A DNA stretch of 64,000 bases from Physcia stellaris. Lineage: Eukaryota > Ascomycota > Lecanoromycetes > Caliciales > Physciaceae. Below the pieces are notes generated by a model that did not search any database, was not told where the DNA came from, and worked only from the letters and a program-made list of their open reading frames with translations. Positions 1,439 to 40,003 of the stretch are shown here, piece by piece. How positions within the stretch are numbered: position 1 is the first letter of the stretch; every line of letters begins with the position of its first letter. The position numbers and the translations under genes are program-made. The stretch spans positions 186,001 through 250,000 of the forward strand of contig JABSSW010000013.1 in the NCBI GenBank assembly GCA_018902385.1. The letters run 5' to 3'.

Positions 1439-2746
1439 ATGGACCAAGCACCACCAAAAGAAGTCGCTATCATCGGCGCTGGTCTTTCTGTAAGTCGGGA
1501 TACCATACCCATCAGCCTCTAACTATCCGCTGATCGTACCCAGGGACTCAGCTTAGCTCTTACTCTCCACGCTCATTCCATTCCATGCACGATCTACGAG
1601 ATCCGTCAGAAGTCTTATGACATCGGCGGCGGGATCATGTTGTCCCCTAACGCGCTACGTGTTCTTGACGCTTTGAAAGTCTATGAGCGAATCCGTACAA
1701 AGGGCTACAACTTCGAACATTCCGATTTCAAGAACGAGCAGGGTGAGACGACGGGCACTTACTACTTCGGTCACGCGCAGCTGTACGGCTACAAGGCACT
1801 GAGAATCTACCGTCAGACCTTGATCGAGGAGCTTCGTGCCATGTGCGAGGAGAAAGGCATCACCATCCACTACGAAAAGAAGTTTACTGGCGTCATCTCC
1901 GAAACTGCCGAGGACGTGAAATTCGAACTTGCCGACGGTTCCGTGATAACGGCCAGTCTTTTGATCGGCGCCGACGGCATCCATTCCAAAGTTCGTCAGT
2001 ACATCATTCCGGGCGCAGCTCCCAAGTATTCAGGATTCATGGCTATCAGTGCTGCTGTTTCGAAGGCGGACCTGGAATTCCCCTCCGAGTGGGATACCTC
2101 GTGCCCGATATCCATCTCCGCCAAAGCCGGCGCATTCATCCTGGCGCCCCAGGGCGTCCATGGCGAAGAGTTCCTGGCAGGCACCCAGCGGCCGTTCCCC
2201 GAAAAGGACCGCTTGGGATGGGAGCAGCTGGCGGCCTCGAAGACGGAACTGCTAGCCATGCTCCGCCAGAACCAGGATTCCTGGCCTGAATTCGTGCAGT
2301 CCATCATGAAAGCCATCAAACCCGAAAGCGTCGGCATCTGGCCCTTCTACGCGATCCCGAAGCTCGAAAAGTGGGCTTCCTCCAGCTCGCGGGTCATCAT
2401 TGTCGGGGATGCAGCGCACGCGATTCCGCCCACTGCCGGTCAGGGTGTCAATCAGGCTTTCGAAGATGTTTACAGCCTCGGCCTCCTGCTTTCAAATCTG
2501 TCGTCCAAGAGTCCGCTGGAGGCTGCTCTGAAGTTCTGGCAGACGTATCGTGAGGAGAGGGTTGGTAAGGTTCTTGCTTTGACGCATCAGATGAATACCC
2601 TTCGACTGCCGGCGGAGGAGCGCGCCAAGGCTATGAAGGATACGGCGTGGGATGAGTCCCGTGTCAGCGGTGCGGATGGCCAGCTGCGGTGGTTGTATGA
2701 GCCGGTGCTCGACGACGTTGTCTCGGAGTGGGTGGCCAGGCAGTGA
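1439..2746 (+). CDS. FAD-dependent monooxygenase, PHBH/salicylate hydroxylase type
   Basis: Two exons (1439-1489, 1544-2746) give about 417 aa. All three flavin signatures of group A aromatic hydroxylases are present: the Rossmann motif GAGLSGLSLA (interrupted by the intron after GLS), the DG motif GADGIHSKVR near residue 130, and the GD motif VGDAAHAIPP near residue 300. Length is normal for the family. The enzyme would use NAD(P)H and O2 to hydroxylate or epoxidise an aromatic or polyketide/alkaloid substrate in the cytosol. Its place beside a DMATS prenyltransferase and an NRPS suggests a tailoring oxidation of a diketopiperazine alkaloid; that role is inferred. No frame break is seen. Confidence 0.88.
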
Positions 2747-2961
2747 CGTCTCGTGGCCTGTAAGACTTTACGCATGCTTCGGAGCTTAATTTGCGATCAG
2801 AGGAGCAAGAGAGGGAGCTAGAGAAAGTTCTCGAATTGACTTGGTAATATAAATTATTGTGTACCTTATATGCGCCACCATTTCGAATTGGATCAAGCGG
2901 TAGACCTACAGCCCTTTTGAGCTGTCACTGCACGTCTTCCCGTCGTTTTCCCTCCCCACAG
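2747..2961. other. Intergenic spacer
   Basis: 3' flank of the monooxygenase. A short AT-rich stretch near 2845-2870 may belong to its 3' end. Nothing else is recognised. Confidence 0.4.
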
Positions 2962-3356
2962 CTAGTCGCGTGCTCCAACGCCTTCAAATGTCGCTCTGGA
3001 AAATTGCGTTCTGCAAATCCATCTGGGGGAACCCTCCAACATGCTGTCCACCTCCCTATCAATTCGATTCCCATCCCTGAAAAACCCACTTCATACGTAA
3101 AAACGGATAACCCGCCTATCACGTTCTCCGCTTACCGTGAACGCAGATTCGAGAGTAGTGGGATTCGGGCATTTTGGGTTTCGTTTTGGCACGAACTGCA
3201 TATTTTTTCGGGGTGGGGGCTGGACGCCGGTACGTTAATATGGTGAAGTGAGTTGCTAGCGTATACGATCTTGATTCTCGAGTTCTGTTGAGCGAAGCTG
3301 TTGAAAGGAGTTGGGGGGCTTGCAGATGGCAGATTGGGCGGCTTTGATGAAGACAT
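2962..3356 (-). CDS. Possible small two-exon hypothetical protein
   Basis: A minus-strand frame starts with ATG at 3356 (MSSSKPPNLPSASPPTPF, Ser/Pro-rich). It runs to a good donor (CG|GTAAGC, exon end 3136) and resumes in phase after a TTTTTCAG acceptor (exon start 3076), ending at TAG 2962, about 111 aa. I do not recognise the product. The support is phase-consistent splicing with strong sites and a protein-like second exon containing NRIDREVDSMLEGSP. It could equally be a chance open frame in the monooxygenase 3' region. Transcript data would decide. Confidence 0.25.
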
Positions 3357-3999
3357 TTTGATATCAGTTTCGCGGGAGTTTTCTTAGGTCGTGTTTGCAT
3401 CAGATTCTCGTTTCGGAAATCTCTTCACTGTTTTGGATCATCTGCTATACCCTCTAGACACCTACATATATACACTAATCACAAATTACTCCCCCCTTTG
3501 CGATGCGCAACAGTATAGTGTTGCATGTTACGCATCAAGAACTTTATTCAGCTCCCCACTGCTGTTAATAGATTATCTCCGTGTGCGAATGCTGTCATGC
3601 ATGACTTTTGGGCCATTCAGTCACGCGACACGAAATCTCGATACAACCACCCTTCACCGCCCTGGCATCCTGCAAGGCCGATTCCAACGGGCCCGCCGAG
3701 GTGGTGGGAGTCTCGGACGCCTGTTGTCAGCCCCGAGCTCGACTCAGCTTCGTCCTCATCGTAATTGCCATGGTCTGAGGACTGCTGCCGGTGCCAGTAT
3801 CGGCCTCCGAAAGGCTGGCTGTCTTGGATAGCTCTACGGTTGCACACGATGTTTTCAATTTTCGATGGCTATTTCAAACGTAAGATCCTACCTTCCCCTC
3901 TAATTAGCAGATCTAGCCCTGAGCTGCTATATACGCTAGTTCTACGAAAAGGATCGAGAGTGCTCTCCAAGTGCAAAGTTAGCATCCACACAGTTCATC
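3357..3999. other. Intergenic, upstream of the prenyltransferase
   Basis: About 640 bp. Open frames on both strands have no domain similarity I recognise. It presumably holds the prenyltransferase promoter. Confidence 0.4.
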
Positions 4000-5705
4000 A
4001 TGTATGACTTCGATTCTGTCCAGATTGCGCGACCTGTGGAGCTTCCCGTGGCACGCAGGATGTCTGTTGATCCAAGCATCCATGGTAGTGCTTCTTGCCT
4101 TAGGTCTGCTCCTTGATGGTTCGTGCTAAGCGGTATAGGCCTCAGCTATTCCCCAATCGTGAAGACAGATCAGACTCTGTCGTGGTTGATCGAATCGCCA
4201 ATCGCAGGTTCGTTCCCAATCGGGGCTCTAGCGAATCTGGACCCCGATCTCAAATCTACAAAGAATGTATCAGTCTCAGACCGGGAGGTGTCGGATGATC
4301 TTGACGAGGTCGAGCCCGAAGAGACTCGGTTGAGCACATCTATCACCCCAGTCTCGTCGGGCCTGGATCAAGATGCGGATTTTTGGTGGAAGACAACGGG
4401 GACGGTACTGGGATTGATGATGCAAAAGGCCGGCTACTCGGTCGAATCACTCCAGAAACACCTCTCTTTCTTTCGTCGATCTGTAGCACCAGCCATGGGG
4501 CGGTCTCCGGGCGCCGACGGGAAACCACAGAATTGGACAAGCTTCATGACCGACGATTTCACGCCGATTGAGCTTAGCTGGTGCTGGAAGGCGGGCAAGG
4601 CATTACCAGTAGTGCGCTATGCAGTTGAGCCTATAGCAAGAACCGCCGGCACTGGTCACGAACCTTTGAACTTCCGCGCAACCAAAGAGCTGATCCGCAA
4701 ATCGCACAGTTACTGCTCCGATATTGAACTGGATTGGCTCCGGCAATGTGTTTCAGAGCTGCTTGTGCAGACTGAAACCCCAGAGACATCTGCCGATGGC
4801 GATGATAGCTCGCAAATATTTCTGGCGTGGGACCTTCAGGAGCATGGCGCCAGTCTCAAAGCCTATTTCCTGCCCAACCTCCGGACAAAGCAAACGGGCC
4901 AGTCAAAGCTGAAACTTATGCAGAGTTGCATGGATAAGCTCTGTGTCCAACAGCCTACCATGGCTGATGCTTTCTCTGCTTTCTCAGATTACGTCCGGGC
5001 CCGCGTGGGCGAAGACGCGCTCACCGTGGAGATCGCCGCCATCGACTGCGTGGAGTCTTCGGCCTCGCGAGTCAAGGTCTACGCCAGGTGCCGTCAAACA
5101 GCCTTTGACAGCGTGAGAGACGTCATGACCATGTCCGGCTTGCTCGACAGCGAAAACATGCGCACAGCCATCGCGTCTCTGAAAGAGCTCTGGGCCCTTG
5201 TCCTGGGCCTACCTGCCGACTTTGACCCTTCGGCACCTCTCCCTCACAGCCAGCACAGGACTGCCGGGATACTGTATTACTTCGAGTTTAAACCCGGCGC
5301 GAAACTTCCCAGCGTGAAGGTCTACATCCCAGTCAAGCATTACGGCATCAACGATCTTGAGGTTGCCAAAGGACTGTCAAAGTTCCTTGCGGGCCGTGGT
5401 AACCGATTTGCCGACTGCGGTTATGTCGAAGCGATGCAGCAAATCTTGTAAGTTCTTCTTGGTCCCTTATTGCGAAACCCCCCTTTCCCCTTTTTCCGTA
5501 CGCCTAGCTCCCCCATACTATGCAAGCACGCGCAACTCTTCCCCATCAAAACGTGGCTGATGGCGTACGAAGTGACCACCGAGAGCTGCAAGCAGGATCC
5601 GGGCTTCAAACCTACGTAACGGCCGCCATCGCCGGGTCGGCGCTCACGGTCACGGCATATGTCAATCCTGAGATCTACAAGTATCGACGTTTTGCGCGAA
5701 AATGA
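4000..5705 (+). CDS. DMATS-type aromatic prenyltransferase (one-base frame break near the 3' end)
   Basis: Proposed exons are 4000-4084, 4139-5447 and 5508-5705, about 530 aa. Family marks include FWWKTTGTVLGLMMQKAGY, an SFFRRSVAPAMG segment, and FTPIELSWCW followed by VRYAVEPI, the usual early conserved block of ABBA-fold indole/tyrosine prenyltransferases. YYFEFKPG, VKVYIPVKHYG and a C-terminal NPEIYK also fit. These enzymes move a dimethylallyl group from DMAPP to an aromatic amino acid or cyclic dipeptide, without the DDxxD motif. The last exon starts in the frame giving HAQLFPIKTWL, but the conserved C-terminus (LQTYVTAAIAGS) is in another frame. The frame is one base short at the GGG at 5601-5603. 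This is an assembly indel or a real lesion. Exon 1 is the least certain part. Confidence 0.8.
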
Positions 5706-6004: not shown

Positions 6005-6105
6005 TCGTCCAGGCTAGACGTGGATGCTAATGCAGGAATGACGAAATGAAAAAAACTTGAAAAAGCTGATCTTCTAATTAAATAGAAAATCAATGTCTCA
6101 TTTTT
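6005..6105 (+). repeat. Terminal repeat copy A, left, largely unmutated
   Basis: It aligns base for base with 10404-10504 at an offset of 4399. The left copy keeps C and G at positions that are T and A in the right copy (for example CTAGACG against TTAAACG). It is a near-ancestral reference for the mutation pattern. Confidence 0.8.
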
Positions 6106-9100
6106 TTCATTTTTCATTTTTTCTTTTTTCTTTTGCAAATTATTTGCAAAAATCAATTGTAAAAATTTTTACATCAATTTTTCGATTTTCGCATATTTTT
6201 TGCTGTAATATTTCGTTCGACTTAATTAAAATTCGATTTCGTTGATTTTTTCGTCGTCGCAATAATGTTTGTCGATATCAAATTCATTTTCATTTCAAAC
6301 AAAAACAATGTTATCGTCGTCAAAAAAAACAATGACAACGACGTATTCAAATTCAAATTCAACAAATTTGCAATTTTCAAACGAATCATTTTCGACGTAA
6401 AAAATCGTAATCGAATTGAAAAATTTGTTTCACGTTTTCGTTTCATTTCAACGCGTTCATTTAAAAACATTTTTCGTTTTGTTCGTTTTCGAATTTTTTT
6501 TTTTTTCGTTTGATTATTTCGAAAATCAAATCGAAAACGTAAATGAAAACGATTTCAACGTCGTGAATTTTGATTTTATCGATTTCGACAACGACAACGA
6601 CGACGCATTCGACAACGACAAATTTCAAATTCGACGATCACGCGCACGCGAAAAATTCTCAAATAACGAAAATTTCGTTCAAAAAAAAAAAAATTTTTCG
6701 TCGTAAAATATTTTTTCAAAAAGAATAAAAACGTATCAAAAAAAATTGAATGAATTCATTTTCATTCAACGTACGTTGTTTTCGTTATTTTTTTTTCACA
6801 TTTTTTCAATTCGTATTTCGTTGTCGCGTTCATTGTTCAAACGATCGAAATTCGTACGAATTTTTACACATGATTCATGATTCGAAATATTTCAAAATGA
6901 AACGAATATTTGTCAACGTGTCGTTTCGATTTTTGTAAAACGTTTATCACGATCGTCTGAATATCAAAAATTTTTTCAAATTCATTTTTTTTTGAATTGC
7001 ATTAAAAATCGTTGTCGATACGCGTTCAAAATTCTTCAAAAATATTTTTTTTTGTTGATGACGATGAAAATATATTGCAACGTTGTTTTCGAATTTATTC
7101 ATTCGAACATTCAATACAAATTGAATTTCGTCATGAATGCGTATCGCATTCGTATCATGAAAACGTATTTTTACAAAACGTGAACGTCGATCGTGACGTG
7201 ACACGAAAAAAATTTGATTCGAATCATTCGCACAAATCAAAACGATTCGATTAATTGATTAATTAAAATCGATTTCATCGAGTGAAAATTGAAAAATATC
7301 GTCGTCGTCGAATCAAACAAAAAAACGATTAAATATCAATTTTTCGTTTCACGCGAATTCAAGAATAAACGTATTACAATTCGCAACGATGTTTGTGTTG
7401 CATTCAATAACAATATTCGTTACGACGAAAATTGCAAATACAAACATATTTGTACAAAATGTCAACAAAAAATCACGACAAATTCGAATGTATCAACAAA
7501 ATTATCAAATGATTAATCGTTTTTTTTTTCATTCAATTTTTTTCTTTTCAATTTTTTTTTTTTCGAATTATTTATTTCGTATGATCATGTCGATTTCGAT
7601 TGAATGATCGTCGAAAAATTTTTTGTATAATGTCGTTTTCGAAAATGCATTTGATTTCGAAATCAAAATGTCATTGAAAACGACAAAATGAAATTTTTAT
7701 TTAAAAAATCATTTTGATCGAAATTTCGTTAACAAACTGTTTAACATTATTAAACGAAACGCGAGCATCGAATATATCGATAATAAAAAATTTCGCATTT
7801 TCAACAATCACAATTCGATCAACGAAATTCTCGATTTATTCATTGTTGATTTCGTCAAACAAATGAAAATTCATCGATTGACTAAATTACGCGATATTTT
7901 TTCTTTTCATTACGTATGTTTTTCGCTAAATCTGATTTCAAAACACGACGACGATTGAAAACGTATTCATGATTTATCATTTTTCAAAAACGATTCGATC
8001 AATGAAAACATTATATTCGACGCAAAAATTTTGAAATACGTCACGTTCGATGAAATCATTGCAATATTCATATATCAAAAACGAAATGTTGTAATGTTCA
8101 AAAAGAATTTCGCAAACGCGTTCAAACACATTTTTGTAATCGTATGAAATCGTTGATTATTCGATTTTTGTTGAAACGACGAATTTTACATGAAATTATT
8201 TTTATTTTTCGATTTTCGAATCGCTTTTTTTTTGATTTATTTGCTAAAACGTTGCATTGAATTTTCGTTAAAATAAATCATTTTCGCATCGTTTTTCACT
8301 ATTTAAACGATTTTCTTTTCATCATGAAATTTGACATCGATTTTGAATTATACAAAATCATTTGACGAAATATTTGCAATAAATTCGATTTCGAAACAAA
8401 CACGAAAAAAAAACATTTGACACAAAATTCGAATTTCTGAACATCGAATTCGATAACGAAATCATGAAAATTCGATTTCTCTCAATCAAATTGACGAGAA
8501 CAGTGAAATTTGTCAACGTGATTTTTATTCAAAATGTTTTCACATTTCGTCAAATCGATTTTTTCGTGAATTTTCTATTTTTTTGTGCAAAAGTCGTGAT
8601 TTTTGAACGATTTTTTTTATTTTTTGTATCGAATTCGCGATCACATTCGAAACGTCAATAAATCATGCAAATTCAACGAAATCATGCGAACAAATTTACG
8701 TTAATGACAAATGTTTTTTTCACGATAAAACGATATCAAAATTTTGCGAAAAATATTTTCACGATCGTCAAATCATATTTGAACAAACGTTTCGAATAAT
8801 TGAAACATAAACGATTTTTGATTTCGTGTTTTTGACGACGAATCATTCGAAAATTTCAATTGACGTTATTCAACGCGTTTTCGCAATCGACAATTGAATA
8901 TTCAAATCAAAAAAATGCGAACGATGTTACACGTTTTGCGTCAATGATTATTTCATTTCGAAAACAACAAAATCGTCATTCATTGCGACAATCAAATCGT
9001 TTGTGTCGAAGTCGACAAAAATACGATACGTAATTCAACAATGACATTTTTTCGTGACGTAATCATGTTGTTCGCTTTTCATGATATTTTGATTGAAATG

Positions 9101-10280
9101 ATGTGATTAAATTCGAAATTCAATCATTTCGTTGATTTATTTTCACGTGATAAACACGATAAAATCGTTGACGAATATTCGCAATTGCAAATTCATCATG
9201 ATCAATTTTAAATTTCGATTTTTCGTTCATCGTTGACGCATCGAAATATTAATATGTTCAAATGTCATTGAATAAAACGATCGTTCGATTTTTGTGATGA
9301 AATTTGATTTCAAATACGCGAAAAATTCACGATTCGATCGTCAATTCATATGTGAAATTTTGCGCTTTTGACAAGTTTCAAACGTTTTCGTTCACGTGAT
9401 TTTGCATTGTCGAATGAATAAATTCGTTGAAATTTCGAAAATTCAAATCGAAAACGATCAAAACATATATTATTGATTTACGTTTCGTTTGCGTCGATCG
9501 AAAATATTTTGATTTTATCGTTTTCAATGAATTTTTGTTGCAACGCGAAATCAACGACATCAAACGTATGTATGACGAAAACGAAACACGTAAACGCAAA
9601 ACGATTACTCGTGATATTTTGTTAAAAATTTTGCAATTTTTCAATATTCGCATCAAAAAAATGTTACATTGCACGTCGCATTTTGTTTGATTTTTGTAAA
9701 AATTTTTGCGTATCGATGAATTTACATAATTTGATATTGATCGCACGTTCAATTTCGACAATTGATTTGTTATTCGTTTTTCGATAATTTTTTTGACGAT
9801 CATTTCGTTTTAACGTTTTTTGTCTCGAAAATCGACTCATTTCGCAAAAAAATTTCGATATTCATTGCAATCACGAGTGATGTTGTTTGTGCAATAATTT
9901 CATTACGTCATTTGTTTTTGCATTTCTCGATTTCGAAATACGTTTTTCTGTTTCAAATCGAAAAATCAAAAATTTTCAATGTTCAATTCGTCATCAAAAT
10001 ACTACGCAAAACGATCGAAAATCTGAAATACGATGACAATTATTCGAAACATTTTTTTCGACGTGATGCGACAATCGAAATTCGCAATGCAAACGTTTCG
10101 AACGATTTGATTCAATTTCTAAAAAAATGAAAATCGAAAACGTTTTTGTTGTATATCGAAATCAACAAAAATTACGTTTTTCGAACATCGCGTCATCATC
10201 AAAACGATTGAATTGTTTTTTTTTTTCGTTTTGTTTAAACGACGACGTCGTTTTTCGACGTGTTTTGAAATTGTGAAAAA

Positions 10281-10400
10281 TAATTAAATTTTGAAAATTG
10301 TTTTGTTGAATTGTTTTCGTTCATGCAAAAAATTTACAAATCGATTAAATTCAAAACATCAAAATTTTTGTACATAACAATGAAAAAAATACGAAACATT
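10281..10400 (+). repeat. Repeat copy B, mutated
   Basis: It aligns without gaps to 10637-10756 at an offset of 356. Differences are almost all C to T or G to A in this copy. It abuts mutated copy A at 10401-10403, which marks the head-to-tail junction. Confidence 0.85.
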
Positions 10401-10403
10401 AAT

Positions 10404-10504
10404 TCGTTCAAATTAAACGTGAATGCTAATGCAAAAATGACGAAATGAAAAAAATTTGAAAAAATTGATTTTTTAATTAAATAAAAAATCAATGTTTCAT
10501 TTTT
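10404..10504 (+). repeat. Repeat copy A, mutated
   Basis: Mutated partner of 6005-6105. It begins the second, truncated unit directly after mutated copy B. Confidence 0.8.
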
Positions 10505-10636
10505 TTCATTTTTCATTTTTTTTTTTTTTTTTTTTTGTTTCGTTCATTCATTTTTTGATTTTCTTCGACGTTTTTCATCTTTTTATGAATTTTTTTTTTT
10601 CTCTCGTTTCAAAATCCAGTCGCAAAAACAAAAAAG

Positions 10637-10756
10637 TAATCAAATTCTGAAAATTGCTTTGTTGAGTTGTTTTCGCTCATGCAGAAGGTTTACAGGCCGG
10701 CCAGGCTCAAAACACCAAGGTTTTTGTACATAGCAATGAAGAAAGTACGAAGCATT
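10637..10756 (+). repeat. Repeat copy B, right edge, unmutated
   Basis: Unmutated partner of 10281-10400. It retains GC-rich runs such as GGCCGGCCAGGC, which read ATCGATTAAAT in the mutated copy. After it, single-copy sequence resumes. Confidence 0.85.
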
Positions 10757-11477
10757 AGCTTAGCGTATCTGGTTTAGCTTAGATATCGAGACTAGTCCTA
10801 TTGTCATCTCAAGCAATCCTCTAGGCTCTCATTCATCTGTGAAAGTCGCAATCCGATGTCCGCCTACAAGCACTTGCATTTCCTCGAAATCTGCGCACCC
10901 CGTGATACCATCTGTGGCTTTCATAATGCTGCGATATTATCCCATTAATCGTTGGCTGTAGACCTACGAGTGGGTCAAGAGTCCTGTGTGGGGGTTGAAC
11001 GAAGATGGTCGCCGGACGGAGCCGCACGCACGCGACGACGGCAAGCCTGTGATCGAAAATCGTTTGGCAGCATGCATCTAAAACGACGCTTCGGGCCGTT
11101 ATGCTTCGCATGGACTTGCTTCACTGAGGAGTTCTCTTTCATGTCCGGATGGGGGTGCTGGCTCGGTGTCCAGATGGCGGCCCGAGCTGTGCTGACCTTG
11201 GCTCGGCACTTTTACCTCCAAACCCCAGCGCAGCAGTATCGACGCCGAGAAAGAGTTTCCATTGCCGCTGTCAGACAATGTCTTTCTGGGGGCCTTATTC
11301 GGTTTTGAAAGCCACGGGCCGGTTTTCCAGATCATCACAGCGCGTCGTTTCGAATGGCGTGTTACTGCTCGAGTAATGACTTGTAAAAGGGAGAATTGTC
11401 CCACAGGTGTCGTACACTTCTTGGGTGTGAGTTTCTGGCTAGGGATCTATGAGCATATCTGTTTTCGTATCATCAAC
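10757..11477. other. Intergenic, P450 upstream region
   Basis: About 720 bp of normal composition. No gene or clear operator is recognised. It should include the P450 promoter. Confidence 0.4.
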
Positions 11478-14656: not shown

Positions 14657-17600
14657 ATGTCTGTGGGTTCGTTTTATTCAGTCTGTCATTTCATCTCCCA
14701 ACGTGCACGGAATTCCCCAAATTCGGTTGCCCTAACCCATGGCAAAGATCTCCTTACCTATGCAGAGTTAGACGCAGCCAGTGTCAGGCTAGGTACAACG
14801 CTTTCTCGTAGAGGGATAAAGACCGGGGATCTTGTGCCCATTCTGACTACCCGCTGCCTCGAGGCTATCGTCTGTCTTGTCAGCGTGTTAAGGATTGGTG
14901 CATGCTATGTACCCGTCGATATAGAGTCGTGGAGCACGGAACGTATCACAACGACACTGCAAATCATCAAGGCCAGGACGTTGGTAACCACTGGACACTC
15001 TACCTTTTTGCCATACGAAACTATTACAGCGCAAGAAGTTTGCGATGCAATCCGTGGCGGTCTCACGAGTTCCATACCAGCAACGGGTATACCGTCAATT
15101 CAACCCTCGGATCTTGCCTACGTCATCTTTACCTCTGGAACCACTTCCTTGCCCAAAGGAGTCATGGTACCGCATCGGGCTTTGGCAAATTATGTTCAGC
15201 AGGGTGGTGATAAGACTCCCTTTAACATGGGCGTCAAACCTTCCGATCAAGTTCTTTTACTCATGTCCATTGCATTTGATGGTATTCTTCGCCATGTATT
15301 TGTCCTTTACTCAGCTGACTTGTAGCAGCATGCACTGGCGTTGTATTCTCCACGCTTTGTAATGGAGGAACCTTGGTCATTTCAAATCCAGCGTCATTCG
15401 CAGAAGACGCTAAAAAATGCTCCATTTTACCCGCTACTCCATCAATATTGAATACCCTTCAACAACCGGAGCTGTATCAAAGTATACGGGGATTTTCCTC
15501 GGAGGTGAATCGCCAAGTCGAACCTTGCTTAATGCTTGGTGCACCCCTACCCGCAAGCTTTTCAACTGCTATGGGCCTACAGAAACTACTTGTGCTTCCT
15601 TGATTACCGAGCTACGGCCTCATCGGCCAATCACTTTAGGGTTACCCATGTCGAACAGTGATGTTATTTTGCTAGATGGAGAGGAAGAAACGCTTAGCGA
15701 AGGAGAGATTTGTATTAGCGGACCGGGCCTTGCAACCGGGTACTTCGGAAACCCTACGCTGACGGACGAAAAATTTCGCCTCTATAAGGGCACAATGTTT
15801 TATCACACGGGAGACATTGCGAAGCGAACTAGCCACGGGCTTGAGTTCGTCGGCCGAATTGACGCCCTCGTTAAAAATAGAGGGTTTCTGATCAACCTTG
15901 AAGCTCAGGTGATACCAGCACTACAGGATTGTCCCGGAGTCATGTCCGCTTCAGCAGTCATGCATGAAGGAAGGCTTGTGGGCTTCGTTACCCCCCTTGG
16001 AGTTTCAGGACAGTCGCTACGTGCAAGGTTAGCAGCCCAACATGATAGCTTCATTGTCCCGGATCAGATCCACTCGCTCCACGCTTTGCCACTGACCGCC
16101 AATGGTAAAGTCGATCCTCGCGCTTTGAAAGAAAGCCTGCTTCAGTCATTAGAGGAGATTAACGTAGCAGACGCTCATGAGGAGTCTGCCATCTTTGTTC
16201 TCCGCCGATCTCTATCCAGTACCTTGAAGATTGCCACCAAGGATATCAGTGATTCTGCTTCTTTCTGGGACCTTGGTGGTAATTCACTTGCAGCGGTCAT
16301 GTTGGTCTCACAGCTCCGTAGCCAAGGATTCACCGTTACAATCCCCCAATTATTTCAGCTTAAAACGGTCAAAGAGGTTGCGGAAGCTATGTCCCACAAC
16401 ATTATCATAGCACCGAGTCAGGCACAGTACTCGACGGGAAATGCAGGCACCGGTGTTATGGACCCTCATTCTGCTATTCCGATAAATGCCGTACAGCTCA
16501 AAATGCTCCGAACATCCATCGAGAAGCCTTTTGTCAACTACATGCTTCTCTCGATTGATATCAACCACAAAGGCCGGCCTTTCCCGTCGTTCAGGTTTCG
16601 ATCTGCTCTGGAGACTATATTCGAGCGTCACTCGGTGTTCCGTACATGCTTCGATCTGGCCCAGGGAGTGCAGATTATTAAGCCCCACGCGGAGCTGGAC
16701 TGGCAAGAAGTAATTGTCGAAGCTGATGCTTGGAACTCTGCCTGTGATGGGCAAGCACAACAGATTCGAGAGAGTGTACAATTGTCTGCAACGAGAGAGG
16801 CGGTTAGCTCCACCCTCGATCCAGCCACAATCTTCAGAGTCATCAGCAATGCAGAAGGAAATACCCGTCTGTTGTGGATGCTTCATCACAGCCGTGTTGA
16901 TGGTTGGTCGATGGGGATTCTGTTTGAAGAGATACAGGCTCTCTTGGACGATAAGGAGCTCGGAAAGGTGCCGCAGTCCTCGGAAATTGCTATAGTCCAG
17001 GACAATATAGCAAAACAGTGCCGACAACAGGCGCTGGATTTCTGGTCGGAAGCCTTGAAGGGTCATCTACCTCCAGCCTCAATACTATTACCTAAGCCAG
17101 ACACACCTACATCGTCTAAATTGACCACGCAACATAGTCTACGCACCTCGCTTACACCGGCCTACCTCGAAACTAGCGCGCGTGCTCTCAAGGTATCATC
17201 CGCCACTATCTTCTATAGCGCATGGGCTATGCTTCTCTCGATGTATAGTTCCAGTGACAAAGTAACCTTTGGGACAGTATTTTCAGGCAGAAACCTTCCC
17301 ACGTCATTGGCACATCGCGTTGTGGGCCCACTGGTCAATACTTGCCCACTACCTGTGCGAATTGACAACACAGCAACCGTTCAGATGTTGCTATCAGAGG
17401 TGCAGAACCGCCTTTTTAGAATGAATGAACTACAATGGTCAGCTGCGGAGGTGATCGCGGATATCACTCCTGACGGCCAAGCTGCGTTGTTCGATACAAT
17501 TGTAGCGCTACAGTATGACCTTCCCGAGATTTGTTGGGATTGTCAATGTCTTCCTGGTCCATGGAGGATGTCCCGAGAAGATACGAGCGAGTTCGGGCTT

Positions 17601-20600
17601 ACGCTCTTGATCGAGTGCGAGGACGGTGAATTGGTATTGAAGATTCTATCGGACACAGCGCGTTTCGAGTCCTCAAACATCGATCATATGCTGTTGCAGC
17701 TAAAGAACATCATCAGCGGCTTCATAGACCCTACTTCTGACATCGTTGAGCACGTGCGTCAGAAAGCGATGGACGATGCGCAGATCATGTCGCTTACCCA
17801 ACACTCTGCTTCAATTGCTGATGAATACAGTGGAGCAACAAGTCTGAAGGATGCCTTCGAAGAAGCGGCTCAGAAGTGGCCAGCCTATACCGCTTTAGAT
17901 TCTGTGGATGGCACAATGACATATAGACAGCTGGATGAAGCGTCGAACCGCATTGCTGGGCAGCTTTCCTCTATCGTTGGTACTGGTGATGTTGTTACTA
18001 TCGTGAGTGACGGCTCTCTACTATGGGTTGCGGGCATCTTGGGTATAATCAAAACTGGAGCCACTTACTGCCCGATCGATGTTAAGCTTCCTGCAGAAAG
18101 GGCCAAGATCATCCAAAGCGAAAGCACAGCGTCCGTGTGCTTAGTGCCGTCTCGAAAGGTTCAGAATGTCTTCAATATCGGCTCGTTGGCTAAAGTCATT
18201 GTTGCAGAAGAGTTACTCTGCAAGACTACGATGGAGAATGTCCGTCTCGAGACCAAAATTGGTCCCCGAGATACTGCGTGCATTGTTTTTACATCTGGTA
18301 GTACGGGGAAGCCTAAAGGAGTGCAAGCGCATCATCTTGGAATCTTGTCGTACCTGTCTTTCCCCCCCGCACGATTGCATGCAAGCCCTGGTAGACGCAA
18401 CGCCCAGCTGTTCTCTGTTGGATTCGATGCTTGTGTAGCTGAAGTGTTTGGAACGCTTTTGTATGGCTCCACTCTTTATCTGAAAGATCCTGAGCACCCC
18501 TTCGACCACCTAAAGCGTGTCGATGCAACGATGGCAACACCATCATTCCTATCCACCTGCCGACCTGACGACTTCAAGAATCTAGACACGGTATGTTGCA
18601 TGCTTGTGTAGGGCTACTTGCTGCTGACCATTTCAGATCCTGCTTGGAGGCGAGGCTGTTACCCAAGAACTTTCTGATGCGTGGAGTCGAGGTAGGAGGC
18701 TCTATAATGGATACGGACCTTGCGAAGTCAGTCACAGAGTATCCTGATAAAAAAAACCTGCTGACATTCTCAGTGTACCGTGGGCTCTGTGTTTAAAATG
18801 CTCCGTCCTGGTGACAAGGTCACTCTAGGTCGACCGATCCCTCGAATGACTGCTTACCTACTGGATGAAGGCCGACGACCTGTCCCTCTAGGCGTTCCTG
18901 GCGAGATCTACCTTTCAGGAATCCAAGTTACGAAGGGATACTTCGGCCTCAAAGCCCAGACAGACGCAAGCTTTGTTCCCGACCCATTCGCTAACGGCAG
19001 GATAATGTACCGTACTGGCGACCTAGGTCGCTGGACCTCCTCAATGGAATTGCAGTTCATTGGCAGAGTAGATACCCAAGTCAAAGTCCGCGGCTATCGA
19101 ATTGAGCTTGGTGCAGTCGAAGCCGCTATTCGAGAAGTCAATTCAGAGATCACGAACGCTGTTGTGGTAGTCCGCGCCGATACATTGCGTGGTTTCATTA
19201 CACCAGGCACTGTCAATGGTAAAGAGGTCCGTGATAAGCTTCGATCTGTTCTTCCGAGCTACTCCCGTCCGGCACAGATCTTCTCCATGGACTCGTTCCC
19301 GTTATCTGTAAACCAGAAGGTTGACAGAAAGGTCCTCGCGCAGCTCGATCTTCAACAGGATCAGACAAAGGTTGCGCTCGCCAACGCCACAGAAACAGCA
19401 CTTGCCCAGATCTGGCAAGAAGCCATAGGCACCTCGAAGTACCCTGAGCCCAGTGCTGACGACGATTTCGCAGACGTTGGTGGCCACTCGTTATTACAAA
19501 TTAAGGTCGGACGCCGTATATCTGAGGTGTTTGGAGTTGCTGTTCCACTTGGGCTGGTCATTCGTAACCCAGTCTTGCGCCAACTTGGGAAAGCCTTGGA
19601 CGAATTATGTGCAAAGCATCAAGATGAAATAGAGCGATGCGAGCCGTTTCTACAGTCGCAGAGATTACTCCGAAACAGTGATCTACCTGTTTCCCACCTC
19701 GAAGAGGAGATGCTTATATACCATCTTCTAACCGATACACGCTCAATCTTCAACATGCCGTGTCGCATCAGAATAGAAGGCAGAATAAACCTCGACGTCC
19801 TCAAACAAGCCATCAGTACTGTTATTACAGAGAATGAACTCCTTCGATGTCGGTACAAGACTCTTCATGGCAGACCCGTTCGACGTATAATCCCTACGAC
19901 AGCTTCCCCCCACGATTTCCCTGTCGGTTCTTGGAACGAAAGTACCGTTGAGGCTGCCGTCAATGATCCTTTTGATATTGAAAATGAACAACTCCTACGA
20001 TCTTTGATCCTGAGGCATGGCGATGGAGATATTGAGTTACTCTTGGTCGCACACCATATCGTTGCGGACAAAGCTGCGCTAGCTTCCATACTCAGGCAAA
20101 TTCAAGCAAGATACTCAAGGCTGCTATATCTGACAGACCCGGGTGTTCCACTGACCTCAAAGGCCAGCAATAACCAAGAGCTATCGCCAGCTTATGAAAT
20201 CAATTACGTGGACTGGGCTCAATGGGCTCGCAAGCGCGTGGCAAGCACTGAGATCTCTGAGTACTGGAGGGAGACTCTTAACCAAGTGCCTGCTCCTCCC
20301 TTCTCTACTGCTACTTGTGTCCAAGGACGAGATGCTGGGACATCAACCACCATCGCCCTTCCCATAGCGATGCAGAAGGAGATGACGGAGAGTTGCCGAA
20401 CGCACGCCATCACCAGCCACCAGTTGGTGCTTGCCGCCGTCTCCCTTACAACCCACATCATCACAGCAAACTGCAATGACGTCGTACTTGCTGTTCCGTA
20501 CATGGATAGATATGAATCTGGAACCAGCGATCTCCATGGTTTATTCCTTGACCGCCAGCCGATCCGTATCAAGCTATCCCCTACAGCACTTTCCTCTGCA

Positions 20601-21275
20601 CAAGAGCTTTTCCAATGCACAAAGAACGCTGCACTGGGCGCGCGAGCAAATTACATGCCTTTCACCGACATCCGCAAGATGCTCCGCGTCACGCCACAGT
20701 CATCCCTCTTCGACATCATGGTGACGTATCATCCTCGCACGGACTCCCTCGAGGCCTTCCAGCTTCCGGGCACCAGAACGCGTTTCCAGAGAACCAGAGC
20801 AAACGGCGCCAAATTCCCATTGATGTTCGAATTCTCAGAGGACTGGCACAGCGGTGCGCTAACGTGCGAGCTGGAGCACAATACAATTCTATTCACTCCG
20901 CCGCAAATCGCGCAGCTGCAAGAGGTCTTCTTGAAGGTGATACAAGCTCTATGTCAAGGCCAGGCTCCGTGCGATATCGCCACGTCGCTTGCAGCCAGCG
21001 GTGTGGATTGGCCGTCACCGACACCGGCTCCCTCGCCCGCGGTGTCCAAGGATCAAGGCAAGATCGACGTCGTCAGGCAGGTCTACGCGGACATCTTGGG
21101 ACTGCAGAGGAAGGACATTTCATGCCAACGCACCCTTTTTGAGCTGGGAGGCTCGTCGGTGGATGCTTTGGCGGTGGTACATCGCCTCGGTCAGAGGGAG
21201 ATACAAGTCCGATTAGGCGACGTGATAAGGCTAGGTAGCGCAGACAAAATCGCTGCGCTTGTTTCGGGGTATTGA
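14657..21275 (+). CDS. Bimodular NRPS, A-T-C-A-T-C-T, ETP/diketopiperazine synthetase type (one-base frame break in A1)
   Basis: Four exons (14657-15281, 15329-18590, 18637-18726, 18774-21275) encode about 2160 residues. A1 (to ~500) has FTSGTTSLPKG, YGPTETT, YHTGD and NGKVDPRAL. T1 (~524) has LGGNSL. C1 (~590-1010) has HHSRVDG. A2 (~1050-1510) has FTSGSTGKPKG, YGPCE, YRTGDLGR and KVRGYRIE. T2 (~1561) has VGGHSL. C2 (~1750) has HHIVADK in place of HHxxxDG. T3 (~2116) has LGGSSV. Order and length match GliP/SirP-like synthetases, which make cyclic dipeptides via the last C-T pair. The A1 frame is one base short at the G run 15488-15491, before the FLGGE core; it is an assembly indel or an inactivating mutation. 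Amino acid specificities were not predicted. The start at 14657 is the first ATG in frame. Confidence 0.9.
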
Positions 21276-28522: not shown

Positions 28523-31500
28523 TTAAATCCCAAAATCATCCCCCACAGCCTCCAGAACCTCCTCCAGCGCCCTCTTCAGCTCCTCATCCCTGACCGTGAC
28601 TTTGATCGCCCTCATCACAAGCGGATACAGCCTATACAAATGCTTTTTGTGCCGCGAGACCACGCCGGCACCCTCAGCATCCGGGAATGCGTTCGGCTCG
28701 CAATCCAATTCCACCAATTTGCGAAGCACGTAGATCATTTCTCTCTTCTGCGACGAAGGCTGGGGCGCACGACCCCGTAGCGGGTGATCGAGCACGTAGG
28801 CTTTCAACGTCAGTCCAGCGCGTAGGATCAGATATGGTGCAGCGGCCTGAGCTAGTCGTACACGGCCTGGGGAGCCATCATGCACGGCGACCAGGCTGAA
28901 GAGCTCATCGAGGAGGACGTAGCTCATGTCTATGCGGGGTGTGGGAGGGACGTTGTAGGTGCGGCCGATGCGCTTGTTTTTCAGGCCTTCGAGGAGCTGT
29001 TGGTCTGGCCGGGCGAGGTCGTCGATGTCGGGCTCGTGAATCTGCGATTTCTCGAAAACGATTTTTGCGTAGGTGTTGTGTACGGAGTCAGGGATATTGG
29101 AGGAGCCTAGAGTGGGGATTGTGAGTTTTTGCAATTCGTGGAAGGCGTCGATGTCGAAGGATTGATCTTCTGGGATGTTGGTCTCGCTTTTGCATGATTC
29201 GCATTTGGCGGTTACTACGCCATCGATCACACGTACGACTTGCTCCCAGAAAGCTTTCATGTCTTCGTCAGATGCTCTGACCTTGAGGAGACTTGGCATG
29301 CACGTTTGCAAAATTTCTAGGACCGCGGAGGTGGCTGGTTTCCACAAAGAGGGCGCTTTGCCGTCCGCATACCATGTATACTTTAGTTGAATGGGCTCCG
29401 CTAGAGCGTCAAGAGCTTGTGTAATCAGGTCATGGGGGTTACTTGTCGTTGCGGAGTGGTTGATAACGAGTTTCTGAAGGAGTCCAATGGCCGTTTTAGA
29501 GACTGCCAGGTGCGTCTGTCCTGGTTGTTTGACCTTATTCTGTACGTAAGGCAAACGCACGAGGAATGTAATGAAGCAAACGATATGGGACAATGCAGCA
29601 GGTGAAGTAGCTGGTATCATCTTGAGATTTTCAAGAACACCCTGTTGAACAGGTGTCGCACGGTCAATGTCATTGCTGTAAGCTCCCACGTTGGCATTCA
29701 CGATGCATGTCTGGAGCTCTTCGATCACTTCATCTGCAATCCTTGTCCGTGATTCAATATCTCTAAGGCGTAAGATCTGAGACAAAGAGCGCAAATATGA
29801 CAGCAGTGCGTCCTGGTTGTTAGGTGGGCCATTTGAATTACTGCTGTGAGAAGCTGGATTGCTTTCTTTCCAGACCGTCCATGCCTCATCCACCGTACTC
29901 CGGCTCATCATCCGAGGGTCTTCTATCTCTTCCAGAACGGAGACTAAGCCCGCGAAGACCGCATTGCTCAATTCTTGTACGCCTCTTTCAAGAAAACATC
30001 GTAAATACTGGAGAAATTGACGCCATGTCTCTGAAAAGGTTTGCTCTTCCTTCATGGTGCTTAGGTTGCTTGCAAGGATGCCTGCGGTTCCGTTAACGAT
30101 GACGATAGCTGTTTGATTCCAGTCGCTCTTCAACGTGTTGTTTTTGGCATCAGCTACGCTTTTCAGATTGAGCTTGTTGTACTTCCGCTGATTCTCGTCC
30201 AAGGTCTGACGGATGATGATGTTGAAGCAAGCTCGCCACGCCTGACTGCTCAGGTCATCGCCGCATTCGCTGAATATCCGGAACAATGTATGCAATGCAC
30301 CTAACAAAATCAGCATGAATCGTGATTTATACATTAGGAGCATTACTATGCCGCACTTCCAGTCTCTCGTCGACGGTGATGTCTTTCAACCGTGACATCA
30401 ACAAGAGCCACAGTGCTGAAAGAGGAGTTCTTGAAGAGTTATGTTCTACCACAAGCGCCAATTCATCGTCAGATGTACAGCTACTAAGCGTGTGATCGAA
30501 AGTCAATTGATCGCTGCGGTGTTGCAGAAATCCCGAAACATTAGCAAAAAAGGTCGCGGTCTGCTCAAAGTCAATGCAGGAACGCCAAATCCCTTGGTGT
30601 ACTTACTGTTAGTGAGATATTGAGGTCTTGGGCCTGTGAGGAAAACATATAAAGCGTATCTAGTAACATAGATAGGCACGCTAGAGGTACATTATTTAAG
30701 AAATCGGAGCAAATCAGCTGTAGTGAGCCATACGACGATCTTACAAGCTGTGGTGATCTCGTGCGAAATCTGGACAGTGGAAGCTCCTCTTCGCCGGTTG
30801 ATGACCGATCAAAGGTACTTGTGATGATCGCAAACACCGTATCCCAGCCACCTTGAAGCGAGTCACCACAGTGTTCGAGGATCGAGCGTAACGCCTCCAG
30901 CAGTATACGATGTATCTCTACATCACAGTTCTGCGTGTCCTTTGACCGTTGCCGTACTTTTGTGTATAGAGCAGATATAGATGTCAGTATTGCTGAGAAC
31001 ATCTGCTTTCGTAGTATATGCTGCTCTTCCAATGTGGACTCCTTTGACGTTGCTACCATGACGACCAAGTCATTCATAGTCTCGGCAGCTTGTACCCGAA
31101 CGACCGAATTGGATGCATGATCGCTTAATGACGTTTCAAGCTGTTTGATAAAAAAATTCAGACAGGCAGCCGACTCCGTGTTTATCAGCCGATTAGTGTT
31201 ACATCGGAGAACATAATCCAATTTCTCGAGGACAAACATGTCTCCCTGTAACCCAAAACCCTCATTCGTGGTTGCTGAGAGGCTAGGGGCCCTTTGATGT
31301 TTCTTCGCAGGCGTCTGTGGAGAGAGCAGTCCATCACGAGGCTCATCTGTAGCGATGTCTTCCGATGAGACTTTTCGCATTAAACTGCTGAGGCATTTCA
31401 CAAAATCTAGAAATGCTTCGTCTGGCAAATCCCCGGAGCTTTCCATCATTCGCGAAGCAGCTGTGTCTGCTGCAAGAATTTCTAGACCAAAGTCTTCACC

Positions 31501-33866
31501 ATTTTTGCTTTCTTCCGAGACCACCTGGCTTGATGCGGTCTGACTAGACTGTCTTGCTGTCCTTAGTCGGTGCTTGCTCGACTTAGGCAGCATGAACTCG
31601 GCTTGCTGGAGGGTTTCAAGAATGATTGACCAGGAAGATTGCAAGAGCGGGCCTAATGCTATACCTAAATTGAGTAAAGCTCTTAGACATAGCAGATTGC
31701 GAGGTGCCATAGCAATGTATCCTAGATCAATGGACGAGCGTTTGCTAGGTGTAGGGCTAGATTCAGCATCACTGTTTTCGTTCAATTCTAATTGATCAAG
31801 ACTTGGTCTCATCATCAAAGCCATATTACGGCCGATGGGTAGGGAGTGTTTGGCTAGTGTAGTAAGAAAGGCATCTCGCGGTGTCGCCAGCCCTAGTAGC
31901 CCTGCGACCTGCGTGAACTTTTGAAATGATCGAATCAGAGCATGGAAGAAATCGGAGTCCATGGTAGCATTGAGAAAGGTGGAAGAGGTTGCTAAGAGTG
32001 CAGGCCAGCATTTATCAACCATATGGGCAGAGGTCTGGATCTGACGGTACAAGACATGGTCCTTTAGACTCAGTGGGTTGACTGGTACCTTTTTCGCTTT
32101 GAAAGACCGACGTCCTGAAGGCGGCTTCGTTGCTTCTGGTGGATTCATATCGCTGTTGTCAATCTCCTCGGTACTGCGGTCTTGCTTCTTAGACTTGTTC
32201 TCTTTGGGCGAAGTGAACGGAAGTAGAAACTTCCCAAGACCGTCTGAAAAGTTGCTGATACAAGTTACTGCAAGCGCATACAAGTAGGTCGCGGGCAAAC
32301 TTGGTGGTTCGGTCTTGTCCAGGAGCTCTAAGTATGGCGTTCTAGGCATGCTCCACTGAGTGCTGATACCTGATGCCTCGGACTCCGGTGTATTGATTGC
32401 GGCTCCAATAGTTCCGACGATACCACCGGCCTGTAGTGCTGCTTGATCGCCCCAGTCGTCCTTCTTGCGCACTGACATTGATGATTGTTGACCTAGGCCT
32501 ATTATATTTGGCTTCTCCGACGCCAAACGGACTAAACTCGCAAGATGATCTCGAATGATATCTTTTCTTTGATCATTCTCATCGTAATGCTCATATACAT
32601 TCCTCATCAGCGTATGATCGGCATGTAAATCACGGAACACCTCCATAGCAAGAGCACGTTTCCATGATTGAGATGCATCCAGCTCAACTGTACGATTGAG
32701 CAGACTGAGTGCATTTCCACATTCTGGAGCAAGAGCGAATAGGAGCCGGCTGATTATCAATTGGAGGAGTCTCATCACTCGAATCGTTGTTGCAAAGGGA
32801 GCCTTGTCTGCTATTATCTTTAATATGAGGGGCATCAAATACAGCCTCAAAACATGTATTTGTTCCGGATGTGCCATGGTTGTGTCAGCATAGTTCGACA
32901 AAACGGACTCGATCAGCTCAAATCCAAAGTTCTGTGAGAGGGACCCAGCTGCAAGGAACTGTGGTCTTTGACCCTCTGTCATAAGACATATATCATTCAA
33001 CAGCTAAGACTCTTATTAGACTGTATCGTAATCCGAGGTTGTGTGGTGCAACAGACCCGATACGCATCAAACGCATTGTGGCGGATTTTCAAGACGCCTT
33101 CAGGGGTCGTAACCTCCGCATTAGAGCCTTCGTCATCAAGGCTACCTTTTACATGTCAACACAAGTACGAAAGCATGCATTGGTTGACGAACCATCTTCC
33201 AAGGCTACCTGCTCAAACGTGGAAGCTACCAACTGCTGCAAAGCCGCGGCAGCAGTATTTGAGACTACCGCTGTCTTACTACTATACAAGGAGAAGCATA
33301 CTTCAAAGGCAGCCGCAAGAAGCTTGTCTGACAAAGCGTCTGAGTAATTCTGTAGCAGTGAGGGAAGTGCTTGAAGCACCTTCAGTTGAATATCAAGTGC
33401 TCCCAGAGGTTAGTCGACCTCTCACAACGCTAGATCACGAACAAACCAAGAGATGTGCATTCTCGAAATGCTTCAAGAACACTGTCGAGGGACTCTTGGG
33501 CCAGAGCCTTGGTGAGCACAAGACGTTGGAGACAGATTACGGCACTCCCCGCGAACTTGGAATTTCGAGTACCACAAGCCAGTAGGAATGGCCTCAAAAA
33601 GATTGGGCGATTCTTCAAATCTCTTTCGAGGTCAGCCTTCACAACGAGCATATGTGAATTTGTCGAATTACCTGCTGCGAGCTGGGCTTCAGAGGTTTGC
33701 GGGAGAGCTTTAAGCTCCCCGAGAGATTTTTCGGCCGCCTGTCATAGATTAAGCCATTTTTTCCCGGCAGGTATTGACTTTTACACACATTCCGGAGGTC
33801 TTGATTCTTCCTCTTGGAGTCTTGGAAAAGGGCTGTCAGCTCGTTGGTGAGTAGCTGAACGGTCAT
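28523..33866 (-). CDS. MON2: MON2 homologue, Sec7/BIG-related Golgi-endosome trafficking protein
   Basis: Eight exons (33866-33789, 33738-33672, 33620-33447, 33399-33193, 33145-33057, 33003-30607, 30560-30347, 30300-28523) join in phase to about 1667 aa, close to yeast Mon2. Recognisable parts are the N-terminal MTVQLLTNELTALFQDSKRK, LQRLVLTKAL, LKVLQALPSLL, LWLLLMSRLKDITVDERLEV and a C-terminus ending VGDDFGI. The protein is a large helical-repeat scaffold that binds Golgi and endosomal membranes with Dop1 and Arl1. It lacks a Sec7 catalytic domain. The start at 33866 is the first ATG; an in-frame TTG just upstream is ignored. It is head to head with the MMS2 homologue. Confidence 0.9.
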
Positions 33867-34265
33867 AGTCAAACAACAACGGCTGGGGAAGGGTGAGATC
33901 CCAGAAAGCCGAACTTTGACGAATCCAGATTTGTTGTACTCGTATCATTCATAATTCGATAGTGAGGGACGCTGTGCATGGCTGAGAGAAATGATGAGAG
34001 CAAGGCTCGCAAGGCCACCTTTGGGGTGTTACCAATAATACAGCTCTAGTAATATATACCGTTTGATATGTAAACATCCGCATCAGTCACATGCTCACGC
34101 TCATCAGCTATTGGGCGCTTGTTCGCTATTTGAAAAGCGCTTTGCTCCTCTCGGCGGATCTTCAAAGATAACATTCGACAGACAGACCTCCTTGCCTGAC
34201 CTTTACAAGTCAAGTGAGCGGCGAAAATTGGAGTGTCGTCGCTGTAATATTCTGGCTTCATCGAG
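33867..34265. promoter_or_regulatory. Bidirectional promoter between MON2 and MMS2
   Basis: 399 bp separate the two divergent ATGs. No specific element is assigned. Confidence 0.4.
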
Positions 34266-34895
34266 ATGGGTGCCAAAGTACCCCGAAACTTCCGCCTCCT
34301 CGAAGAGCTCGAAAAAGGAGAAAAGGGTCTTGGAGCAGGTATGTGTACGTTTCAACGTGGAGTGAGGGCCATGTATTAACTCGAGTTCTAGAGGCATGCT
34401 CCTACGGGCTTGCTGACGGTGGTGACGACCTCTTGATGTCCAATTGGAACGGAACAATCCTCGGTCCTCCCCATGTACGCTACCTACAGAGACAGGAAAG
34501 CGGTGCTGACTCGACCGGGTAGAGCGTGCACGAAAATAGAATCTACAGCTTGAATATCCATTGCGGCGATAGCTACCCTGATGTACCACCCCTTGTTCAG
34601 TTCAACTCAAAGATTAATCTCCCCTGCGTTGATCCGAGGACGGGAAAGGTGACTGATCACTGACCATGTACTGCCTTTGAGTTGCTGCTGATGTTGGCTA
34701 TAGGTTGACCCGTCGAGACTACCATGCCTATACCAGTGGAAGAGGGAGAACACAATGGAGACTATCCTCATTGAACTGAGAAGGTGCGCACACAGCAATG
34801 GGTGTCTGAACAGCAAGTTGACCCTCAGCGATAGGTTCATGGCTCTACCTCAGCACAAGAAGCTTCCCCAGCCTCCGGAAGGATCGACATTTTGA
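34266..34895 (+). CDS. MMS2: Ubiquitin-conjugating enzyme variant Mms2/Uev1
   Basis: Five exons (34266-34338, 34392-34474, 34523-34648, 34704-34783, 34835-34895) join in phase to 140 aa, the usual size. The sequence begins [20 protein letters not shown], continues with [12 protein letters not shown] and [12 protein letters not shown], and ends [12 protein letters not shown], nearly identical to known Mms2 proteins. The variant lacks the catalytic cysteine of E2 enzymes and pairs with Ubc13 to build Lys63-linked chains in error-free post-replication repair. The last acceptor is taken at 34834 and not at an earlier CAG, because only the later one gives the conserved ELRRFMA. Confidence 0.95.
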
Positions 34896-35190
34896 AGATG
34901 AACGAATGACGCATGGCAGACATTATGAGCATAAATGGATGAACGAAGCATGAATAGGAACAGCACACGCATGTGCAGGCGCCTGCAAGGCTATGTGGGA
35001 CTTCTGTTGTTGTTGCTTGCAAGATTTGGAGCACTATCGCTCAGTCTATGGTGCACGTTGTCGCTTCGAGTGTATCTTCTCTCGATGATTCTTCAAGGAG
35101 TCATTTGCATGCAAAGGCTATCAACCCACGAACAGCTTGTCTTCAGAAGCTATCAAGCTGTCAGGTACTCGCAGCGCTGAGAAGTCCAAT

Positions 35191-36024: not shown

Positions 36025-36248
36025 TCTTGTGGATGCATTCAGTCTTTCTAATAGTACATCACCTACCTTGAGCAATGGATTTGACAGCATGACGTCTATC
36101 CATTGCCCGAAGCACATAGATCTCGTGACAAGCCTGTATCGTATCACTAGCGGTAAATTATCAAATAGCACGTGACAGCGAGCCTATCTCGCTCATGCGA
36201 CCTCTTCGAAAATTTTGGCTTACCGTGTACATAAGTTCACAAGATGGA

Positions 36249-37285: not shown

Positions 37286-37375
37286 TGGTTATGAGAACAA
37301 GACATGCAATCAAAGGATTAGCGCCTCATCCTTCACAACGGTTTCTCTATTCATCATCGCACACGAACTTTTCCA

Positions 37376-39966: not shown

Positions 39967-40003
39967 CCATCATTTTCGATAATTTTGCAGAATCTTGACT
40001 ATC

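Follow-up and report, generated by a model that had tools for sequence, protein, structure and literature searches.

The DNA examined here is a stretch of 64,000 nucleotides of the Physcia stellaris genome (contig JABSSW010000013.1, positions 186,001 to 250,000; the whole stretch is called the window), which includes one copy of a dispersed repeat element of about 4.75 kb whose interior is almost devoid of cytosines followed by a pyrimidine (CpC and CpT, together CpY) (Table 1). GC content at 6105-10620 is 27.6%, compared to about 50% in the surrounding DNA, and the dinucleotide counts are 1 for CC, 0 for GG, 37 for CT and 12 for AG, against 297 for CA, 236 for TG and 332 for CG. The ratio of observed to expected counts (O/E) is raised to 3.88 for CG and lowered to 0.33 for TA, whereas in the comparison region 28523-44457 CC, GG, CT, AG, CA, TG and CG all range between 0.92 and 1.11, with TA at 0.68. 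An earlier note, made from the letters of this DNA, had claimed that CC, CT, AG and GG were nearly absent from this block while CA, TG and CG were frequent, and the counts bear this out. Correction for base composition does not remove the effect: the interior (6150-10580) retains CA, TG and CG and holds CC 0, GG 0, CT 33 and AG 11, the minima in 1000 base shuffles being 66, 53, 212 and 167, respectively, and TA occurs 192 times there compared with about 576 in the shuffles. CpY has thus been cleared from both strands of one molecule in which CpA, TpG and CpG remain, and this depletion is a confirmed observation. The borders given in the earlier note (6105..10620) were somewhat too wide, the outer ends of the repeat being unmutated. 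Among the leftover sites of the interior CT outnumbers AG, a strand asymmetry that we record as such.

Table 1. Features of the repeat element (positions in the window) and methyltransferase-family genes of the genome (by contig)
Feature	Location	Strand	Basis and remarks
Whole repeat element, one copy of dispersed family	6005..10757	.	Genome search with 6005-10760
A1, outer left terminal repeat, unmutated	6005..6134	+	Direct repeat D3, 87% identical to 10404-10533; ~130 bp
CpY-depleted hypermutated tract, both strands	6136..10590	.	Dinucleotide counts; edges taper, borders approximate
B1, inner copy of right terminal repeat, mutated	10276..10401	+	Direct repeat D4
A2, inner copy of left terminal repeat, mutated	10404..10533	+	Direct repeat D3
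B2, outer right terminal repeat, unmutated	10632..10757	+	Direct repeat D4; ~126 bp
RID-like A, predicted	contig C5		PF00145; Lecanoromycete RID clade
RID-like B, predicted, short, DmtA-like	contig C6, L035 (C6:790000-793500)		PF00145; beside Heterodermia near DmtA proteins
DIM-2-like gene, predicted	contig C3		PF00145; open 1118-aa frame

The layout of the element provides its own internal control, because its outer terminal repeats are unmutated and their inner copies are mutated. From A1 to A2, C>T changes affect 4/4 CC, 13/14 CT, 0/14 CA and 0/6 CG sites, and from B2 to B1 they affect 8/8, 15/15, 2/19 and 0/6, so that pooled over the terminal repeats 40 of 41 CpY sites are changed against 2 of 45 CpA and CpG sites (Fisher P ~8e-21; CpA alone, 2/33). 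A tandem duplication of the local flank, considered as the origin of the A1/B1/A2/B2 arrangement, was dropped because each of the six near-full copies matches over A1 and B2 as well. A search of the P. stellaris assembly (44 Mb, 147 contigs) with the element gave at least 95 matches (38 of 149 candidates were scored), including at least six near-full copies at 90-100% identity, the window copy counted, and members of a second subfamily with identities of about 73-80%. All 30 family loci that were fetched (numbered with L; contigs with C) carry the CpY signature over at least part of their length, with intermediate depletion in L004, L019 and L021.

Comparison of these copies gave the same order of contexts. 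With the partly mutated copy L012 as reference, the strongest of the 15 copy pairs listed (L012 to L003) shows C>T at 19/19 CC, 105/111 CT, 28/277 CA and 10/310 CG sites, and weaker pairs give 10/19, 83/112, 16/278 and 5/310 (L012 to L001) or 0/2, 51/77, 49/300 and 63/362 (L011 to L013); the rate of change at CpT exceeds those at CpA and CpG in 15 of the 15 pairs. Over all ordered pairs, which are not independent and include ordinary divergence, the rates are 0.55 for CC, 0.66 for CT, 0.146 for CA and 0.118 for CG. When L012 and L020 serve as references for six copies, 82-100% of CpC and 62-84% of CpT cells are changed, in comparison with 15% of TpCpA, 5-7% of other CpA and 3-13% of CpG, change at CpY depending little on the neighbour at the 5' side or on that at +2. 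Family alignments therefore place the main mutated site at CpY and not at CpA, as the earlier note had proposed; its statement that CpA and CpG are spared holds in that both change far less than CpY and fails in that CpA is changed at 5-15% of cells. CpA is at most a weak secondary target.

The mutation is limited to the element, and the adjoining normal DNA is untouched; in the window, too, the DNA flanking the block has normal composition. Of 22 true element termini, 11 adjoin normal DNA, the surroundings of the remaining 11 being themselves depleted or partly so, and at each of the former 11 (two of which, those of L012 and L020, have one duplicated flank in common) CpY is kept in the outer ~100-200 bp and then falls to near zero. 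Abrupt edges were found at internal breaks only (for example, at position 2592 in L012/L020 and at ~1093-1100 in L007/L029), as would be expected from later insertions.

Stop codons in other transposon families offer a further view of the context rule. Under a CpY-only rule TGG can become TGA only and CAA, CAG and CGA never become stops, while CpA-directed mutation gives TAA and TAG; gene damage would hence take a different form, glutamine and arginine codons being spared from stops. Among the best 150 of 527 candidates for the reverse transcriptase family RVT_1 we counted 250 TGA, 33 TAA and 3 TAG (10 sequences stop-free, 112 with TGA only and 28 with some TAA or TAG), and ten matches to DDE_1 DNA transposons contain 44 TGA, 3 TAA and no TAG. 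In 108 cytochrome P450 matches taken as control (from 92 scored among 248 candidates), in which stops are expected to come from introns, the figures are 14 TGA, 18 TAA and 18 TAG (Fisher P values of 2e-17 for RVT_1 and 1e-11 for DDE_1, which overstate the certainty as the copies are related). TGA thus dominates the stops of reverse-transcriptase and DDE_1 sequences elsewhere in the genome, in agreement with the CpY rule, since TGG can turn into no other stop.

Indices in common use for repeat-induced point mutation (RIP) do not register this pattern. The interior of the block has a TA/AT ratio of 0.35 and a substrate index of 1.24. We scored 664 segments of 500 bp, mostly from loci fetched as family matches and with some overlap, using thresholds set by ourselves: 291 were CpY-depleted and none was CpA/TpG-depleted. 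Not one of the 291 passes TA/AT >= 0.89 together with a substrate index <= 1.03, against 9 of the 373 others, and the median TA/AT is 0.38 in affected segments compared with 0.64 in the others. The prediction of the earlier note that standard indices would miss the block was therefore correct.

Taking these results together, we consider it probable (at roughly 0.83) that the block is a copy of a transposable element in which a RIP-like process directed at repeats has changed C to T on both strands, its preference being about equal for CpC and CpT, far lower for CpA, and lowest for CpG. The comparisons between copies establish the C>T and G>A direction and the CpY specificity in this family, and the genome contains predicted genes of the RID and DIM-2 classes with open frames. 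As to mechanism, recognition of repeats would rest on their homology and take place in a sexual or premeiotic stage, and an enzyme of the DNMT1 superfamily would catalyse or direct the mutation. RID-like A, the RID orthologue, is the most likely candidate and DIM-2 a possible one, and the target preference would have shifted away from an ancestral CpA. Because the process works like RIP and yet fails the CpA test, we class it as a new RIP variant rather than as canonical RIP; at the level of sequence, a RIP-like process with inverted target preference is well supported.

Several observations weigh against this reading. A duplication of about 5.1 kb, with an overall identity of 92%, contains L012 (C98) and L020 (C20), and although the changes from L012 to L020 are CpY-biased inside the element (20/128 CpY vs 11/575 CpR, that is CpA and CpG), the left flank shows no such bias (8/365 CpY vs 12/334 CpR), the right flank has raised CpC (21/126) but not CpT (4/175), and the duplicated flanks retain normal composition. 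Two-copy DNA of ordinary composition thus escaped while the adjacent many-copy element kept changing, which limits how far duplications in general may be said to be affected. Two reverse-transcriptase/integrase copies (C5:1166521-1166997 and C12:60312-60788) have identical scores and 0 stops, and are probably near-identical intact retroelements that escaped mutation; five of six rve matches are likewise stop-free, the remaining one having 2 TGA, and 4 of 4 HTH_Tnp_Tc5 matches are without stops. A role for DIM-2 meets the difficulty that Dim2 of Zymoseptoria promotes mutation at CpA, with next to no methylation of CT (PMC8016269; this and the other papers given by PMC number are cited for the parts of their open text retrieved), so that DIM-2, too, would need a changed preference. 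Lastly, the affected DNA in two genome samples (L040 and L045) had no match to any other fetched locus. The CpY signature was present in four of eight 10-kb genome samples, which were hand-picked from a random list of 94 with small contigs favoured and hence give no estimate of the genome fraction affected; comparison of the affected tracts with the fetched loci yielded long matches only for L039, both to itself. GC content in the C87 sample is 13-27%, and in L040 (C87:16-10015) it is 13-18% over 8 kb, with a CpG O/E of 6.4-8.1 and CpY nearly nil, so that this sample shows the signature in its more extreme form. The link between mutation and repeats is thus established for this family and not for all affected DNA, and the repeat-directed process suggested by the earlier note stands to that extent. 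One of the L012/L020 flanks also carries an open frame (L012:92-586), which we take to be P450-like.

Alternative explanations for the CpY depletion differ greatly in how well they survive the evidence. The strongest, which overlaps with RIP-like mutation and which we regard as possible though clearly the less likely account, is DIM-2-type methylation of silenced repeats with preference for CpT and CpC, followed by slow deamination of 5-methylcytosine rather than a one-step burst. The DIM-2-like gene is present with an open frame, according to a 2026 review DIM-2 of Neurospora methylates cytosine in every CpN context, CpT being preferred (PMC13297926), and the copies of intermediate depletion fit such a course. 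CpG is, however, the least affected context even though methylated CpG is the usual site of classic deamination, Dim2 of Zymoseptoria has CG and CA as its sites and hardly touches CT (PMC8016269), and CpY near saturation beside intact CpG within one copy is better fitted by a directed process. Simple CpG deamination was rejected, CpG being changed less than any other context.

A cytosine deaminase of the AID/APOBEC type acting on exposed repeat DNA or complementary DNA would account for strongly context-specific C>T changes, but such enzymes choose by the 5' neighbour; in this family the choice depends on the 3' neighbour and hardly on the 5' one, both strands are cleared, and a DNA-transposon family (DDE_1) carries the stop signature as well, which makes this explanation very unlikely. 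Deaminase profiles gave 8 genome matches for PF00383 and 0 for PF08210, the latter being uninformative because its control also gave 0. Still less probable is canonical CpA-directed RIP with CpY depletion as a by-product or as compositional drift, for although a RID orthologue is present and CpA is changed at 5-15% of cells, TA is depleted (O/E 0.33), CA is retained while most CpY sites are changed, and stops are mainly TGA and not TAA or TAG. A sequencing or assembly artefact (for instance through bisulfite conversion, contamination or insertion of foreign AT-rich sequence), for which nothing was found, can be set aside as highly improbable, given that both strands of one molecule are changed with normal DNA adjoining on the same contig, that copies are spread over many contigs, and that the published assembly was built from Nanopore and Illumina reads of an axenic culture grown from ascospores (PMC7513301).

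If the CpY mutation is indeed RIP-like, its enzyme may be sought among the DNA methyltransferases. The PF00145 profile gave four matches in three genes of the genome, and a quick tree built from 45 class-I rows was used to place the two RID-like genes, the top named relative of RID-like B being Heterodermia; homologues of RID and DIM-2, which the earlier note had suggested looking for, and of DmtA are thus represented by predicted genes (Table 1). RID-like A carries SPPCQFFSDAHT, and its catalytic loop reads SPPCQFFS-D-AHT, with Asp where others have Pro. This Asp occurs in 94 of 118 proteins of the list for RID-like A (best 120 only) and in 0 of 114 proteins with a recognisable loop of the list for RID-like B (best 120 only), in which Pro is commonest (91); 6 of the 238 proteins of both lists have no recognisable loop. 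Since Dirinaria, which we take to belong to the same order as Physcia, has Pro rather than Asp in the loop, as do Blastenia, Squamulea and Letrouitia, the Asp is not a clean marker. Alignment to DNMT1 puts the position one before the catalytic-loop Met, presumably the residue that enters the DNA. Adopting a conservative view, the loop Asp as determinant of target preference may be taken as a lead and not as a result. The wider proposal that Lecanoromycete lichen fungi evolved an inverted-target (CpY) RIP, made by a RID orthologue that in Physcia and many relatives has Asp for Pro in the loop, is tentative and, in our judgement, rather doubtful; if true, the target preference of RIP would belong to a single enzyme, in which it could be read and could evolve, and CpA-based indices would have misjudged RIP in lichens.

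The process resembles Neurospora-type RIP in changing C:G to T:A on both strands of repeats, in sparing the unique DNA adjoining a repeat, and in the presence of a RID-class gene. It differs in that CpC and CpT are targeted with CpA nearly spared, that TA/AT falls instead of rising, and that stops are mostly TGA rather than TAA or TAG; as for duplicated DNA, the family is mutated at 30 of 30 loci and the flanks of the L012/L020 duplication are not. CpT has been seen as a target before: in Botrytis, Sclerotinia and Magnaporthe a CpT signature accompanies that of CpA and has been linked to a protein of the RID class that bears a special motif (Amselem et al. 2015, PMC4352252), CpT occurs beside CpA in Neurospora Tad1 and in some Stagonospora repeats (PMC2621366), and CpT changes are described as dominant in alignments of RIP-capable fungi (van Wyk et al. 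2021, PMC7882544). In the first group, however, CpA is a main target as well, whereas in P. stellaris change at both CpC and CpT is almost saturated and CpA plays a minor part, and the term CpC is absent from the main text of PMC4352252. The same paper reports CpG-type mutation in transposons of basidiomycetes and Tuber, which is also a context-specific C>T change of transposons but affects the context least affected here.

Among lichen fungi, Cladonia rangiformis, presumably a Lecanoromycete, is similar in having repeats driven to very low GC together with RID and DIM-2 homologues. Its low-GC 'ripped' islands have sharp borders and RIP was called from GC content (PMC12542154); the terms CpT and dinucleotide are absent from the main text of that paper. 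Endocarpon, also a lichen fungus, shows canonical indices with TA/AT of 1.47 (PMC3897900), and in the P. stellaris genome paper (PMC7513301) the displayed occurrences of the string 'RIP' are RiPP. A preference for CpC and CpT with CpA spared is described in none of the passages cited here on CpT, and a CpC and CpT preference did not appear in the titles and abstract openings covered by searches of the open-licence PMC literature, preprints excluded, which does not prove its absence from print.

As for the identity of the element, its split direct repeats (A1 ... B1-A2-B2) are reminiscent of the order that we take to be typical of DIRS/Ngaro (PAT-like) elements. Thirteen open pieces of the element, whose coding sequence is badly mutated, gave no Pfam family above cut-off, the tyrosine recombinase family PF00589 had 0 matches across the genome, and the window copy was not among the best 150 of the 527 RVT_1 candidates; no domain, such as a reverse transcriptase or tyrosine recombinase, that would confirm the putative assignment to DIRS/Ngaro was thus found in the element. 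A cysteine/histidine-rich stretch (L011:2610-3116, minus strand) recalls what we take to be the zinc-knuckle of DIRS-type gag proteins. L012 and L011 are two halves of one copy, lying about 5.6 kb apart on one contig (C98:20628-26274), as if later DNA had been inserted into an already mutated copy.

As regards the neighbouring genes, a flavin adenine dinucleotide (FAD)-binding protein, a tryptophan dimethylallyltransferase and nonribosomal peptide synthetase modules at 1637-5451 and 15417-21275 flank the mutated block, which may sit inside a secondary-metabolite cluster. Farther along the window, on the minus strand, a Mon2/Sec7-like protein extends over two long frames, presumably intron-split (28523-33000), and a NACHT-type protein with a Nephrocystin-3 N-terminal domain occupies 57687-60104; NACHT-type proteins of that kind have been tied to fungal self/non-self recognition.

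A survey published in 2025 and covering 1,239 fungal genomes concludes that CpA preference is common to RIP-like defences (PMC12543289). RIP surveys lean largely on CpA-to-TpA indices, and the mutation of transposons in this genome moves those indices in the opposite direction, which suggests that counts of RIP may be too low in lichens and in other groups that have been little studied. A RIP-like process of the kind proposed here would make the choice of RIP target an evolvable trait, and P. stellaris would offer a natural contrast for locating the residues that set it.

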